DNA of 64,000 bases from Pelobacter seleniigenes DSM 18267 (lineage in GTDB: Bacteria > Desulfobacterota > Desulfuromonadia > Desulfuromonadales > Geopsychrobacteraceae): positions 1,500,501-1,564,500 of the forward strand of contig NZ_JOMG01000002.1 in assembly GCF_000711225.1 (NCBI RefSeq). The letters are read 5' to 3'. Every line of letters begins with the position of its first letter. Positions within the stretch are counted from its first letter, which is position 1. The translations under genes and the position numbers were made by a program. Under the pieces are notes generated by a model. It made no database searches. It was not told the DNA's origin and worked only from the letters and a program-made list of their open reading frames with translations. This document shows, piece by piece, positions 27,270-32,978 of the stretch.

Positions 27270-28679
27270 ATGGCCGAGATTCTGATTGTCGATGATGACG
27301 AGATGATGTGTTCAACGTTGTCTGCGCTGGTAACGCGCAAAGGCCACGCTGCGCTTTCGGCCATGACCTTGAAACAGGCCCTGGCAATGACAGAGCAAGG
27401 GCAATTTGATGTAGTTTTTCTCGATGTCCAGATGCCTGACGGAAATGGTTTGGATGCTTTGCCGGCCATTGAGATGAGCCCTTCCAAACCTGAAGTTATC
27501 ATCATGACTGGCTACGGAGATCCCAACGGCGCGGAACTGGCCATAAAAAGCGGGGCATGGGACTACATTGAAAAAGGTTTTTCCATCAAAGAGATTACCC
27601 TTTCCCTGGAAAGGGCACTGCAGTACCGCAAAGAAAAACTAGAGGTTGTCCGTCATCGCAAACCGGTATCGTTGAAACGGGACGGAATCATTGGCAGCAG
27701 TCCGGCCCTGTTGAGTTGTCTCGACCAGGTGGCGCAAGCCGCCGCCAGTGACGCCAATGTGTTCATCACCGGAGAGACCGGGACCGGCAAGGAGCTGATT
27801 GCCCGCGCGGTTCATGACAACAGTCAACGCAGGCAGGAAAATTTTGTTGTGGTCGACTGTACCTCTCTACCGGAAACCCTGGTCGAAAGTCTGCTGTTTG
27901 GACATGAAAAGGGGGCCTTTACCGGTGCCGACAGGGCACAGGACGGCTTGGTTCTACAGGCCCATAAAGGGACCTTGTTTCTCGATGAGGTCGGCGAGCT
28001 GCCTCCAGTATTACAAAAAGCCTTTCTTCGCGTGCTGCAGGAACGGCGCTTCCGCCCCCTCGGGCAGAGTAAGGAAAAAACCAGCGATTTTCGTCTCATT
28101 GCCGCAACCAACCGGGATCTTGACGCCATGGTTGAGGCCGGTCGTTTTCGTAGTGATCTGCTGTTTCGGTTGCGCTCTTTTGTTATCGAGTTGCCGCCGT
28201 TGCGGGAGCGGATGGAAGATATCCACATTCTTACCAGGCATTATGTGGATAAGTTTTGTGCCCGCTATGGCATGCCCTCCAAGGGGTTTGCACCGGAATT
28301 TCTCGAAATGCTGAGTCTTTACCCATGGCCGGGGAATGTCCGCGAACTGGTCAACACCCTGGAACGGGCCTTGGCCGCCGCCCATTTTGATCAGACACTT
28401 TATTCCAAACATTTGCCCAGCCACATTCGGGTCCATGTCCGCCGCGCGGAAATGGAAAATTCATCAACCGAGAAAAATGACCTGAACCTGAATGTTAGCG
28501 ACATACCAAAATTGCAGGATTTCCGAGAAGCTATCTATCAACAGGCCGAGAATGAATATCTGTTGAAATTGATGGCAACCAGCGCCGACGATATCCCCGC
28601 GGCCTGCCGGATTTCCGGACTCTCCCAATCACGGCTGTATGCGCTGCTGAAAAAACACGGTATTGCCAGGAAGAATTGA
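27270..28679 (+). CDS. Sigma-54-dependent response regulator (NtrC family), BccR-like
   Basis: The 469-residue protein has a receiver domain (acidic cluster D8-D10, phospho-acceptor D52 in FLDVQMPDG), an AAA+ domain with GETGTGKELIARAVH, an intact GAFTGA loop (GHEKGAFTGADRAQ), Walker B LFLDEVGELPP, both arginine-finger positions (GRFRSDLLFRL) and PWPGNVREL, and a C-terminal Fis-type helix-turn-helix (AACRISGLSQSRLYALL). It should activate sigma-54 promoters when phosphorylated. No histidine kinase lies nearby. In Geobacter sulfurreducens, as I recall, the regulator BccR controls cbcBA; this gene has the matching position and type. Likely targets are the promoters at 28861 and 30159. Confidence 0.9.
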   Translation: MAEILIVDDDEMMCSTLSALVTRKGHAALSAMTLKQALAMTEQGQFDVVFLDVQMPDGNGLDALPAIEMSPSKPEVIIMTGYGDPNGAELAIKSGAWDYIEKGFSIKEITLSLERALQYRKEKLEVVRHRKPVSLKRDGIIGSSPALLSCLDQVAQAAASDANVFITGETGTGKELIARAVHDNSQRRQENFVVVDCTSLPETLVESLLFGHEKGAFTGADRAQDGLVLQAHKGTLFLDEVGELPPVLQKAFLRVLQERRFRPLGQSKEKTSDFRLIAATNRDLDAMVEAGRFRSDLLFRLRSFVIELPPLRERMEDIHILTRHYVDKFCARYGMPSKGFAPEFLEMLSLYPWPGNVRELVNTLERALAAAHFDQTLYSKHLPSHIRVHVRRAEMENSSTEKNDLNLNVSDIPKLQDFREAIYQQAENEYLLKLMATSADDIPAACRISGLSQSRLYALLKKHGIARKN

Positions 28680-28860: not shown

Positions 28861-28876
28861 TGGCATGACAGATGCT
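28861..28876 (+). promoter_or_regulatory. Sigma-54 promoter before the AAA+ gene
   Basis: TGGCATGACAGATGCT has the invariant GG and GC dinucleotides with exactly ten bases between. The -24 half is good (TGGCA), the -12 half weaker (ATGC instead of TTGC). The downstream gene starts 65 bp later. An A-rich tract immediately precedes it, as at the 30159 promoter. Confidence 0.6.
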
Positions 28877-28940: not shown

Positions 28941-29879
28941 ATGAGGAAGAGCAACAAAGGGCATAACGCAGGAGTAACTGCGCTGCTGCAACAATTGGGG
29001 GAAGGGCGGGATTGTCTTGAAAAGGCCATGGCCTTGCTGGAGAATCTGAGCCTGAAAAGCGAGATTCCGGGAATCAGCGCTGAAGATATTGAATATACCC
29101 TGGACGGCTCGGTCCTGATCCTCAGAAGAACGAACACAGCGCAACAGCAGCGGCCGGCCGGCGCGCCACGAATCATCGCGGAAAATGGCAAAACCCGGTT
29201 GGCTCTTGGAATCGCTGAAAAAATGGCTCAGGGGGATGAAAATGTCATCATCCAAGGGGAAACCGGAACCGGGAAAGACCTGTTTGCGCGCTATATCCAT
29301 CTGGTCGGAAGCAGATCTGTGGAACCGTTTGTCTGGTGTCCCTGCGGCACCGGCTTTGGAATACGGCAGTTGGAGGATACCTTTCAACAGGTGGGTCATG
29401 GCACGTTGTTGCTGGACGATGTGAATGATCTCGAGAGTTCGGGGCAAGGGGAATTGTTAAAAATATTGACCGCGAGCTCAGGCCGAAGAGAGTTCCGAAT
29501 CATTTCCACCACCAGCTGTGAGCTGGACGCCCTGGCCTCAAAAGGGCAGTTTTCAGACGCTCTGTTGGATCTGTTACGGGGGTGTTTCGTTGAATTACCT
29601 GCGCTCCGTGACCGGAAGGAGGATATCATTCCATTGGCGCGCCATCATTTGCCATTGCTTTGCCAGAAAAACAAACTTCCCGCAAAACAGATGTCACCGG
29701 AATATCTGCAGCTATGTGAACTATATCCATGGCCCGGCAATGTCAGGGAACTGATTAATGTTCTGGAACAATCACTTTACACCGCGGGGGACAAGAAGAC
29801 CCTTTTCGGAAGAGATCTACCGACCCATGTCCGTATTCAGACGGCCAAGGGCGCGGCTCAAAGAAAAAAAGGTTTGTAG
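28941..29879 (+). CDS. Degenerate sigma-54-activator-like AAA+ protein lacking GAFTGA and DNA-binding domain
   Basis: The 312-residue protein is related to the central domain of the neighbouring regulator: Walker A GETGTGKDLFARYIH, Walker B GTLLLDDVNDL and the PWPGNVREL segment are intact. However, the stretch between Walker A and B is shortened and has no GAFTGA loop, so it should not engage sigma-54. The two catalytic arginines of FRxDLxxRL are replaced (GQFSDALLDLL). The protein stops just before where the Fis helix-turn-helix would begin, and a unique segment of about 80 residues replaces the receiver. It may bind ATP and modulate the full-length activator by mixed oligomers; that is inference. 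ATG 28941 follows AAGG. Confidence 0.8.
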   Translation: MRKSNKGHNAGVTALLQQLGEGRDCLEKAMALLENLSLKSEIPGISAEDIEYTLDGSVLILRRTNTAQQQRPAGAPRIIAENGKTRLALGIAEKMAQGDENVIIQGETGTGKDLFARYIHLVGSRSVEPFVWCPCGTGFGIRQLEDTFQQVGHGTLLLDDVNDLESSGQGELLKILTASSGRREFRIISTTSCELDALASKGQFSDALLDLLRGCFVELPALRDRKEDIIPLARHHLPLLCQKNKLPAKQMSPEYLQLCELYPWPGNVRELINVLEQSLYTAGDKKTLFGRDLPTHVRIQTAKGAAQRKKGL

Positions 29880-30018: not shown

Positions 30019-30077
30019 TTCCTGCGCAACAGGAAAATTCCTGCGCGATAGGAATTTTAGGACCTTGCTCGTAGGAA
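30019..30077. promoter_or_regulatory. Tandem activator-binding sites before the cytochrome locus
   Basis: Three dyads follow one another: TTCCTGCGCAACAGGAA (30019-30035), TTCCTGCGCGATAGGAA (30038-30054) and the weaker GACCTTGCTCGTAGGAA (30061-30077). The half-sites TTCCT and AGGAA recur with spacing near two helical turns. They lie 80-140 bp upstream of the sigma-54 promoter at 30159, the classic placement of enhancer sites for an NtrC-type activator. Confidence 0.7.
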
Positions 30078-30158: not shown

Positions 30159-30174
30159 TGGTATGCAGGTTGCT
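30159..30174 (+). promoter_or_regulatory. Sigma-54 promoter of the cytochrome operon
   Basis: TGGTATGCAGGTTGCT carries GG and GC ten bases apart with a perfect TTGCT at -12. Transcription should begin near 30185, giving a leader of about 35 bases before the first small membrane-protein gene (30219). The following genes up to 33569 run in one direction with short gaps and are probably in this operon. Confidence 0.75.
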
Positions 30175-30218: not shown

Positions 30219-30455
30219 ATGAAACGAAAAAAATTCTACAGGTTGGCCGCTGTCGGTGTCGCAATCATTGTTGCGGGTTTGTTCATGTTCTGTGATCTGG
30301 GGCTCGGATTCTCGCCGATCATGAAATTCTTTGTGGTCTTTTTCGGCTTGATCATCGGTCTTCAATGTATCCCCGCGGTTTTGATGTTTATCGGCATGCT
30401 GAAAGGTATTGCGCCGCAGACCAGAACCAAGGTGATCGACCATAGCGGGCGCTAG
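30219..30455 (+). CDS. Small two-helix membrane protein, first of a paralogous pair
   Basis: The 78-residue protein has a basic start (MKRKKFYR), a first transmembrane helix (about 9-27) and a second (about 33-60), with a short basic tail. Its second helix, GLIIGLQCIPAVLMFIGMLKGI, shares the pattern GLIIxLQxxPxxxxxxGxxKGI with the product of 30929-31177, so the two are paralogues. AGGAG precedes the ATG. It is the first gene after the sigma-54 promoter. The function is unknown; as part of a cytochrome operon it may be an accessory or regulatory subunit of the membrane complex. Confidence 0.75.
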   Translation: MKRKKFYRLAAVGVAIIVAGLFMFCDLGLGFSPIMKFFVVFFGLIIGLQCIPAVLMFIGMLKGIAPQTRTKVIDHSGR

Positions 30456-30473
30456 AAAAGAACGGAGTCACAT

Positions 30474-30863
30474 ATGAGAGCGCGAAAAGTGTTGATAGCG
30501 GATCGTGATGAAAAGGCGAGAACGAAATTGGCCGAATTCTTTGAGAATTCGAATTATGACGTGGAAACAACCGGCTCCGCAGCCTATGCGATTGCCAAGA
30601 TTGTTCAGAAGCAGGAGCCGATCGTTATCCTTGGGGATGCATTTGAAGAAAAAATTGCCTCCGTGGATGTCATCGCCCTGATGCGGAAGTGCAATAAAAA
30701 CCTGAAGATCATTCTGATTTCGGATGACAGCTCGCTAGAAACGCTCCGTCGCATTCGTAAAGATGGCATCTTTTACCACGCTTTGAAGCCACATGATTCT
30801 GAAGATAATGAAGAGCTGCGTTCCGTCGTCGAATGCGCGGTGGAGGGTTTTCAGCCTGTTTAG
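30474..30863 (+). CDS. Stand-alone receiver-like protein
   Basis: The 129-residue protein has a CheY-like outline: VLIADRDEKAR supplies the acidic residues after strand 1, IVILGDAFEEK lies at strand 3, IILISDD gives the Ser/Thr position, and HALKPHD gives the conserved Lys-Pro. The likely phospho-acceptor Asp is shifted by one residue relative to the usual LLD pattern, so phosphorylation is uncertain. There is no output domain. It sits between the two paralogous membrane proteins with gaps of 18 and 65 bp. CGGAG lies upstream of the ATG. Confidence 0.75.
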   Translation: MRARKVLIADRDEKARTKLAEFFENSNYDVETTGSAAYAIAKIVQKQEPIVILGDAFEEKIASVDVIALMRKCNKNLKIILISDDSSLETLRRIRKDGIFYHALKPHDSEDNEELRSVVECAVEGFQPV

Positions 30864-30928
30864 CAGGGAAAAATAACCATTCGGCCTGCTGGCCGAGCAG
30901 TGATCGATTGCATGAAAGGGGTACCGCA

Positions 30929-31177
30929 ATGAAAAGAAAATATCAACAATGCCTCACCACGATTCTTGTTCTGGTTGCCGCAATGCCGGCTATCGCTGCG
31001 GAAACTGCCGCACGTCAGGATGACAGTATGACCCTGGTCTATCTGTTCCTGGCGACCTGTGGGTTAATCATTGTGCTGCAACTACTGCCGGTGTTCACCC
31101 TGGTCTATGGGCTGATCAAGGGAATCTTCGGCAAGCGTCAGGAGCAGCAAAAACCGCTCCCGGTCAAAAACAGGTAA
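30929..31177 (+). CDS. Small membrane protein with signal segment, second of a paralogous pair
   Basis: The 82-residue protein starts at ATG 30929 behind AAAGGGG; the longer frame from 30833 overlaps the previous gene and is not used. It has an N-terminal hydrophobic signal-like segment (LTTILVLVAAMPAIAAETAA, possible cleavage after AIA) and one helix, GLIIVLQLLPVFTLVYGLIKGI, matching the second helix of the 30219 product. The tail is basic and Gln-rich. It precedes the seven-heme cytochrome gene by 62 bp. Confidence 0.75.
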   Translation: MKRKYQQCLTTILVLVAAMPAIAAETAARQDDSMTLVYLFLATCGLIIVLQLLPVFTLVYGLIKGIFGKRQEQQKPLPVKNR

Positions 31178-31239
31178 GGTTCGCCGGAAGGGCAGGGAAA
31201 TTTACGTATCGGCCGCTTGGAAGAGCCAAGGAAAGAGGA

Positions 31240-32298
31240 ATGATCATGAAACCATTGAGCAGGATAAAAATAAAAACATGGCCCCTGCTGTTGCTCCTGT
31301 TTTTCATTCCCGCACCAGTGCCCGCCATGGAGGTGGATGACTGTCTGGGGTGCCACGGTGATGTGGAAATGGTCGGTGCAGACTTGCTGATCAATTTGGA
31401 GAAATACGATCATACAGCCCATGCCCAGATGGGTTGCCTGACTTGTCACGAATCGGTCACCGATGCGCACCCGGATGATGGCGTGGCAGTCACCAAAGCG
31501 GCATGTCTCGATTGTCACGAAGAGGTCGGAGCGCAATACCTGGCCACAAAACACGCTGAATATGCTGCCTGCAAGGATTGTCACAATCCCCATGAGGCGC
31601 AGGGGCTGGCAGCGGTTTCAGCGCCGCAGATGAATCAGCAGTGCGGCACCTGCCATAGCGCGGAGAGTGTGGTGCAGGCCCATCAGGAGTGGTTGCCCCA
31701 GGCTGATCTGCATATCAGTGCATTGCCCTGCATTACCTGTCATACCTCGTCAAAAGGGTACAAAATTGTCCTGAATATCACCCAGAAACAACAACAACGG
31801 GTCTTCGGGGACTATGTGTTTCCCAGCTATGCTGACCTTTCGACTGTGGCTGGTGGAAAGAGCATTCGCTCTTTGATCGATATCAATAATGACAATCTGA
31901 TCTCTTTAGCAGAGCTGAGGACTTTTAACCGGAATCCGAAATACCAGGACCTCAGGCTGGAAGGGACCCTGGTGCCAAGCATGCTGTCCCACGACCTGAG
32001 TACCCTCGAAAGCCGCTATGACTGCACATTCTGTCATGCGTCCGGGCCGAAGAGTCTGCAGACGAGTTTTGTCGCACTGCCACTGCCCGGCGGCAATTAC
32101 GAACAGATTGCGGTGGAGAAGGGCCCAGTCCTGGAAGCCCTGTATGGCACTCCGGACTTTTATATGAGCGGCAGCACCCGCAATGCTTCTCTCAATATTA
32201 TGGGACTGCTGATTATTTGCGCCGGACTGGTCATGCCGATCGGGCATGGAACGCTACGGTTTTTAACCAGAAAAAACCGGCAACATAAAGGGGAATAG
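31240..32298 (+). CDS. cbcA: Seven-heme c-type cytochrome, CbcA-like, with EF-hand loop
   Basis: The 352-residue protein has a signal peptide (cleavage after PVPA, about residue 29) and seven CxxCH heme sites: CLGCH 35, CLTCH 66, CLDCH 89, CKDCH 111, CGTCH 135, CITCH 164 and CTFCH 262. A C-terminal transmembrane helix (about 319-337) anchors it to the inner membrane with the hemes in the periplasm. Between hemes six and seven is a canonical EF-hand loop, DINNDNLISLAEL (214-226). It abuts a b-type cytochrome gene. In Geobacter, CbcA (seven hemes) with CbcB passes electrons from menaquinol to the periplasm during low-potential metal respiration; that role is inferred here from heme count, partner and regulator. 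Confidence 0.85.
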   Translation: MIMKPLSRIKIKTWPLLLLLFFIPAPVPAMEVDDCLGCHGDVEMVGADLLINLEKYDHTAHAQMGCLTCHESVTDAHPDDGVAVTKAACLDCHEEVGAQYLATKHAEYAACKDCHNPHEAQGLAAVSAPQMNQQCGTCHSAESVVQAHQEWLPQADLHISALPCITCHTSSKGYKIVLNITQKQQQRVFGDYVFPSYADLSTVAGGKSIRSLIDINNDNLISLAELRTFNRNPKYQDLRLEGTLVPSMLSHDLSTLESRYDCTFCHASGPKSLQTSFVALPLPGGNYEQIAVEKGPVLEALYGTPDFYMSGSTRNASLNIMGLLIICAGLVMPIGHGTLRFLTRKNRQHKGE

Positions 32299-32300
32299 TC

Positions 32301-32978
32301 ATGAAAAAGAAAAAAAGAGTTTACCTGCAACCGACCCCGGTCAGAATCTGGCATTGGCTCAATGCACTGGGCATCGTGACTTTAATGGTCTCAGGAGCGC
32401 AGATCCGTTTCCCCGAATACATCTCCTGGTTGGGAAGTTACAAATCTGCAATCTACTTGCATAACGCGGCGGGGTATGTGGTTGCCGTTTCCTTCTCGCT
32501 TTGGTTTTTCTACTACCTGTTCATCGCCAGGACCATGGCAAACCTCTATGTCCCCAAAGTGGAGGATCTGAAAACCGGTCTGGTCAAACAGGCGAAATTT
32601 TACTTTCTTACTTACTTTCTGGGCTGGGAGAATCCACATCACCCGACCCCGGAAAACAAGTTCAATCCGTTGCAGAAATCCGCCTACCTGGCAATCATGT
32701 TTGTCCTGGTTCCCTTGGTCAGCCTGTCCGGGATCCTGCTGACCAATGTCGAGCCATTGCGGGGATTGATCGTCATGCTGGGAGGGCTGAAAATTCTGGT
32801 TGGGCTGCATTTCCTGCTCGCCTGCATGCTGATAGCTTTTCTGCCGACCCATATTTACCTGGCAACCCTGGGACATACTCCCATGGAACATATCAAGGCG
32901 ATGTGGACCGGCTGGGACGAAGAGGACGACGAGCGGGAAGAAGACAGTAAGCAGCCGCTACCGAGTCATACCGGTTGA
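32301..32978 (+). CDS. cbcB: Inner-membrane b-type cytochrome, CbcB-like
   Basis: The 225-residue protein has four transmembrane helices with histidines placed for two b hemes: WHWLN (about residue 18), LHNAAGY (54), LHFLL and THIYL in the last helix. This is the cytochrome b561/HydC-FdnI fold that oxidises quinol. The C-terminus is a charged cytoplasmic tail (DEEDDEREEDSKQ). It starts two bases after the seven-heme gene, so the two almost certainly form one quinol-oxidising complex. Confidence 0.87.
   Translation: MKKKKRVYLQPTPVRIWHWLNALGIVTLMVSGAQIRFPEYISWLGSYKSAIYLHNAAGYVVAVSFSLWFFYYLFIARTMANLYVPKVEDLKTGLVKQAKFYFLTYFLGWENPHHPTPENKFNPLQKSAYLAIMFVLVPLVSLSGILLTNVEPLRGLIVMLGGLKILVGLHFLLACMLIAFLPTHIYLATLGHTPMEHIKAMWTGWDEEDDEREEDSKQPLPSHTG

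Follow-up and report, generated by a model that had tools for sequence, protein, structure and literature searches.

The locus studied here raises the question of what a sigma-54-activator paralogue (EBP2) may still do when it is without most of the parts that make such a protein work. The gene lies in a stretch of 64,000 nucleotides (the window) of Pelobacter seleniigenes DSM 18267. It is found directly downstream of an intact paralogue, EBP1 (34% identity), as the earlier note had reported, and ahead of an operon that is presumed to be cbcBA-like from its gene content (seven CXXCH motifs, cytochrome b). The coordinates, frame and length of EBP2 were verified by an ORF check, and the features of the locus are listed in Table 1. 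As a lead, EBP1 may be the orthologue of BccR, the activator of cbcBA in G. sulfurreducens.

Table 1. Features of the EBP1-EBP2-cytochrome locus (positions within the window).
Feature	Position	Strand	Basis
EBP1, intact receiver-AAA+-HTH sigma-54 activator, presumed EBP2 partner	27270..28679	+	domain search, synteny, alignment
EBP2 sigma-54 (-24/-12) promoter, TGGCATGACAGATGCT	28861..28876	+	motif scoring
EBP2, degenerate sigma-54-activator paralogue, 312 aa	28941..29879	+	ORF list, domain search, alignment
Trace of Hsp20/alpha-crystallin-like segment, EBP2 residues 36-65, around SLKSEIPGISAEDIEYTLDGSVLILRR	29046..29135	+	profiles vs PDB
Walker A GETGTGK, EBP2 residues 106-112	29256..29276	+	alignment
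L1/GAFTGA loop deletion point, EBP2 residues ~137-138	29349..29354	+	alignment
Altered Walker B LLLDD (vs LFLDE), EBP2 residues 156-160	29406..29420	+	alignment
Pre-sensor-I (L2) loop deletion point, EBP2 residues 182-183	29484..29489	+	alignment
FSDALLDLL in EBP2 (vs FRSDLLFRL in EBP1)	29550..29576	+	alignment
Sensor II WPGNVREL, retained in EBP2	29730..29753	+	alignment
Conserved C-terminal tail of EBP2, TLFGRDLPTHVRIQ...KKGL	29799..29876	+	alignment
Enhancer dyad TTCCTG-N5-CAGGAA upstream of cytochrome operon promoter	30019..30035	+	motif search
Second enhancer dyad, one mismatch	30038..30054	+	motif search
Sigma-54 promoter of cbcBA-like operon, TGGTATGCAGGTTGCT	30159..30174	+	motif scoring
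cbcBA-like operon, presumed target	30219..32978	+	ORF list, domain search, synteny
Operon member, small membrane protein (first)		+	
Operon member, receiver-only protein	30474..30863	+	
Operon member, membrane protein	30929..31177	+	
Operon member, 7-CXXCH cytochrome c	31240..32298	+	
Operon member, cytochrome b	32301..32978	+	

EBP2 was found to match Sigma54_activ_2 (PF14532) over residues 93–222 (75.2 bits against a gathering score of 25) and the AAA lid (AAA_lid_14, PF25601) over residues 223–307, above the cut-off. The protein fits the domain family PF14532, which is silent on partner gene, promoter and role. Neither a receiver nor a C-terminal Fis-type HTH was matched in the domain search; the stop comes right after the lid, with the KKGL tail closing the protein at the point where the HTH linker would start, which bears out the clean loss of the Fis domain described earlier. 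The AF2 model of EBP2 is confident over the AAA+ and lid regions and matches structures of FlrC, NtrC1 and FleQ, with VpsR structures also among the matches.

Alignment with EBP1 confirmed the loss of GAFTGA through deletion of the L1 loop. The losses first listed were found as described, but the list had missed a deletion of 9–12 residues in the L2 loop; both loops are deleted in EBP2 and the same 12 orthologues. The two catalytic arginines had been reported as lost, and indeed the whole RxDxxxR arginine-finger motif is gone (R to S, D to A, R to L, giving SxAxxxL). Sensor II had correctly been described as kept, its Arg being retained in the window and absent in three orthologues (L040, L041, and L043). 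Of the two Walker motifs said to be retained, Walker A is intact, with GxxGxGK invariant across 13 orthologues, but in Walker B the DE pair reads DD, the glutamate having become Asp. Among the orthologues this pair is DD, DG, ED, EE or SE, with DE in one only. Given a variable Walker B and a sensor II Arg that three orthologues do without, even nucleotide binding may be dispensable. The best-conserved parts of EBP2 are lid and tail elements common to EBP1 (mean column identity of 0.88 over residues 287–302). Judged by its sequence against a functional sigma-54 activator, EBP2 has kept the AAA+ type, the P-loop and the lid, and has lost L1, L2, RxDxxxR, the HTH and, as is usual in its group, the Walker B glutamate or aspartate. 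It is alone in being without L1, L2, fingers and HTH together among the 51 sigma-54-activator ORFs recovered from the genome. A second degenerate homologue (L094) is present on C1 of the same genome at ~409 kb (about 408983–409615, 660-aa frame); GAFTGA is absent, Walker B reads D-R (no glutamate), the fingers are altered, Walker A reads GDDGTGR and the HTH is kept.

The loss of several catalytic motifs and the HTH might be expected of a decaying pseudogene or a sequencing frameshift, and orthologues were sought in 136 genomes of the order, many of them incomplete. These orthologues (mostly 38–48% identity) are of similar length and lie directly downstream of an EBP1 orthologue, and the frame is open in all full-length examples, which share the end point KKGL. 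For EBP2, dN/dS in unsaturated pairs was 0.19 (0.105/0.557), 0.13 (0.157/1.164), 0.18 (0.196/1.108), and 0.19 (0.249/1.296), compared with 0.04–0.15 for EBP1 in the same pairs, and dN in the closest pairs was about 1.3–3.7 times that of EBP1. EBP2 is under purifying selection and is evolving faster than EBP1. With open orthologues, no random breaks, dN/dS of ~0.13–0.19 and a conserved promoter and location, decay or a frameshift was rejected as extremely improbable.

Such fast divergence, together with the variable Walker B and sensor II, would also suit a repurposed nucleotide-binding protein acting apart from the EBP1 ring, for example as a scaffold for the downstream receiver-only or membrane proteins; the receiver-only gene is near EBP2 in most genomes. 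However, the conservation of lid and tail elements common to EBP1 speaks against this reading, as does strict co-occurrence and adjacency with EBP1, and we regard it as decidedly improbable. The EBP2 gene is present in 19 of the 19 EBP1-bearing genomes of the window's family (f1), the form in genus g8 being less reduced, and members of the family without EBP1 are also without EBP2, with one contig-edge exception (Fisher p ~5e-12, with species treated as independent and shared ancestry ignored). No EBP1, EBP2 or cytochrome was found in genera g2, g4, g5, and g6 at the thresholds used, and a single EBP1-like match was all that was obtained in several further families of the order and in the class's other orders. 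A scan of genome contigs with the orthologue profile gave only weak matches (28–37% identity) in many phyla, apparently to generic activators.

The same pair beside cbcBA-like loci in other genomes, which the earlier note had proposed looking for, was found in about 20 genomes with the shared order EBP1, EBP2, small membrane protein, receiver, membrane protein, heptaheme cytochrome c and cytochrome b. ATP synthase genes are often found upstream, and there are some local duplications. The small-protein/receiver/membrane-protein (and p33084-like) module is tandemly duplicated before the cytochromes in L039, L041, L049, and L239. The receiver-only protein, which is conserved ahead of the cytochrome genes, has an unusual phosphoacceptor region (ILGDAFEE). 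In relatives a hybrid histidine kinase, the likely cognate sensor, lies between atpC and EBP1 (L040:3362–5722, + strand). The window has just ~410 bp between these two genes, and the closest kinase homologue (62%) is unlinked, at C2:2146395–2148686 of the same genome.

The sigma-54 promoter that had been proposed for EBP2 was upheld. None of 300 base-shuffled versions of the upstream region reached its score, and a site of this type lies 36–96 bases ahead of the EBP2 start in 24 of the 24 loci with enough upstream DNA; no comparably conserved site was found upstream of EBP1 in the same comparison. Going by sequence, EBP2 has a conserved promoter of its own and is always with EBP1 in its family. 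A sigma-54 site is also found between EBP2 and the cytochrome operon (22/22 loci), preceded in all 22 by the dyad TTCYTG-N5-CARGAA with at most one mismatch, the best dyads of the window being those in Table 1. Controls for promoters and dyads were simple base shuffles. From its position and co-occurrence, the dyad is probably what EBP1 reads. Most relatives also have it ahead of the EBP2 promoter, without mismatch in genus g8 and the majority of f3; it is missing there in L042, L047, L048, and L057. In the window the ~180 bp ahead of the EBP2 promoter contain no dyad of the EBP1 type, a point against the damping reading given below. A genome-wide search for other EBP1 targets gave four exact dyad sites compared with about two in a reversed control, so no EBP1 regulon could be called.

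The origin of EBP2 was examined with a maximum-likelihood tree built on the AAA+ and lid regions, in which the reduced proteins nest in a clade with nearly complete activators on its early branches. Members of families f3 and f14 retain GSFTGA (changed in some, e.g., L062 and L065), FRxDLLxRL and the HTH. L055 has lost the GAFTGA loop and kept both fingers and the HTH, and L223, which still has the HTH, is without the loop and one finger. In L052 and L053 GAFTGA, fingers and HTH are lost and the Walker B DE is kept, and in EBP2 of the window and twelve others L1 and L2 are deleted and Walker B is mostly altered. These proteins form a series, from a full activator through loss of GAFTGA, then of fingers and HTH, to deletion of L1 and L2; an intermediate of the L055 type could bind DNA and ATP and could not act on sigma-54. 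The clade probably goes back to a single duplication and not to two, although this is unproven because support at the clade base is weak (33); a support of 98 was obtained for the inner node that unites L058/L065 with the window's family.

The receiver had been described as simply lost, and none is present in EBP2, but in its older relatives the receiver position holds an Hsp20-like segment (e.g., VELPGVSADEIDVRISDVLLNI) of which a trace persists in the window. Sub-threshold HSP20 matches were obtained for six of the 10 sequences tested, at the same profile positions. All 19 PDB matches of the segment profile at E ≤ 1 were small heat-shock proteins (best 1.3e-5), as were all 11 matches of a profile made from the reduced clade only (best 4.3e-4), by which the segment is homologous to the first half of the alpha-crystallin domain. 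Only positions ~5–48 of the Hsp20 profile (PF00011) are covered, below the gathering score, the complete domain of ~90 residues being absent, and the EBP2 sequence of the window alone gave no Pfam match over the segment. An AF2 model of the 80-residue N-terminal piece showed four strands at low confidence; a fold search with it returned mostly small heat-shock proteins, none significant (best E 0.49), which is mild support. On these matches, the receiver was replaced early by a half alpha-crystallin (Hsp20-like) segment. L045 and L046 are without the segment, and nothing relevant on a described Hsp20-EBP fusion was found in a literature search.

In genus g19 the EBP2 position is occupied by a protein of ~116–131 aa (L071:7471–7818, − strand; L227:4452–4844, − strand; L228:7676–8068, + strand). 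In L227 and L228 the Hsp20-like segment is fused straight to a Fis-type HTH and the whole AAA+ domain is absent; ahead of the short protein lie a sigma-54 site of the type seen before EBP2 and a dyad without mismatches. The truncations are opposite, one lineage having kept the ring part and g19 the DNA-binding part. Without AAA+, the g19 form would be no ring subunit and can be expected to compete for the enhancer; HTH-less EBP2 would not compete for DNA and can be expected to enter rings. Each reduced form would keep one way of interfering with EBP1, and such interference seems the simplest role common to both, which is the main argument for a negative sign. The L228 gene adjoins cytochrome genes with no EBP1 on the stretch, and no EBP1 was found in its genome (G023, 87% complete).

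As for known systems, in the paralogous pairs HrpR/HrpS and VnfA1/VnfA3 both partners are activators and neither is known to be as reduced as EBP2. Homologues without GAFTGA such as TyrR, DhaR, HupR, VpsR, and YplP keep their DNA-binding domain; like EBP2 they have an EBP-type AAA+ domain without the sigma-54-contacting motif, and unlike them EBP2 has no HTH. HrpR/HrpS and VnfA1/VnfA3 are known to interact, and subunit specialisation has been proposed (PMC9542535). Many GAFTGA-less homologues, the five named above included, have been described, several being sigma-70 dependent (PMC3162934), and FleT of Rhodobacter (Cereibacter) sphaeroides, which hetero-oligomerises with FleQ, is without regulatory and DNA-binding domains (PMC11999139, PMC3162934, PMC7277832) and is expressed from a sigma-54 promoter that FleQ switches on (PMC11999139, PMC3162934). 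The statement that no described protein has this design was therefore too strong.

FleT is the closest precedent, as EBP2 is likewise without both terminal domains and has its own sigma-54 promoter. With regard to a partner-driven promoter, the relatives of EBP2 mostly share the enhancer dyad, whereas the window has none ahead of the EBP2 promoter. FleT is a co-activator at flagellar promoters and EBP2 sits at a cytochrome operon. L1, L2 and the fingers, and in most of its group Walker B as well, are missing from EBP2, which also carries an Hsp20-like N-terminal trace.

Damping could nevertheless be questioned, as FleT, the closest analogue, is a co-activator of FleQ and not an inhibitor. EBP2 might similarly form active hetero-oligomers with EBP1 and alter promoter choice, assembly threshold or phosphorylation dependence. 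FleQ/FleT complexes recognise later promoters (PMC11999139, PMC3162934), VnfA paralogues co-activate (PMC9542535), the circuit logic is the same as that of the EBP1-EBP2 promoters and dyads, and the constitutive hexamers given by substitutions in the PspF finger motif could help assembly (PMC3419264). Against this, EBP2 has lost L1, L2, the fingers and in most cases Walker B, and the g19 form, having no AAA+, cannot take a place in the ring, which speaks against a conserved role in ring assembly. A co-activator or selector is considered rather unlikely.

The best-supported option, to which we give about an even chance, is that EBP2 is a functional, selected regulatory subunit, controlled by EBP1 and sigma-54, which co-assembles with EBP1 and damps it; the protein would have arisen by duplication of the activator next to it. 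EBP1 would switch on both EBP2 and the cbcBA-like operon, and EBP2 would bind nucleotide without hydrolysis and insert into or cap EBP1 rings. The fingers of PspF work in trans, on the ATP of the neighbouring subunit; when R162, D164 or R168 is substituted, ATPase falls sharply but hexamers form constitutively, so that a loss of fingers does not bar entry into the ring (PMC3419264). L2 of PspF exerts its effect on sigma-54 via L1 (PMC2745333); the L1 loops follow the N-terminus of sigma-54 round the ring (PMC12054792). A ring with EBP2 would have a gap in its L1 spiral and one neighbouring ATP site without a finger. Insertion would lower activator output, since EBP2 offers no fingers for the neighbouring site, no sigma-54 contact and no enhancer binding. 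The cytochrome operon would thereby come under a delayed negative feedback, which is plausible because Geobacter uses CbcBA at potentials near -0.2 V and induces it if easier acceptors are absent (PMC12307469). An anti-activator that poisons the hexamer had already been suggested in the earlier note; it withstood the test for decay, with the poisoning itself still conjectural.

It is possible, though somewhat short of probable, that the whole lineage is one of dominant-negative hexamer subunits, which gained half an alpha-crystallin segment for the receiver and were then converted stepwise into a dead subunit feeding back on its sister, the other genus having dropped AAA+ and kept the DNA-binding half as an enhancer competitor, so that two opposite truncations would have one regulatory outcome. 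The intermediates from full sigma-54 activator to dead partner subunit all occur at one genomic place, and with this series the order in which sigma-54 contact, trans-catalysis, DNA binding and hydrolysis were lost becomes directly testable. For the organism, EBP2 suggests an unrecognised layer of control on CbcBA-type respiration near the energetic limit, which is of relevance to extracellular electron transfer.
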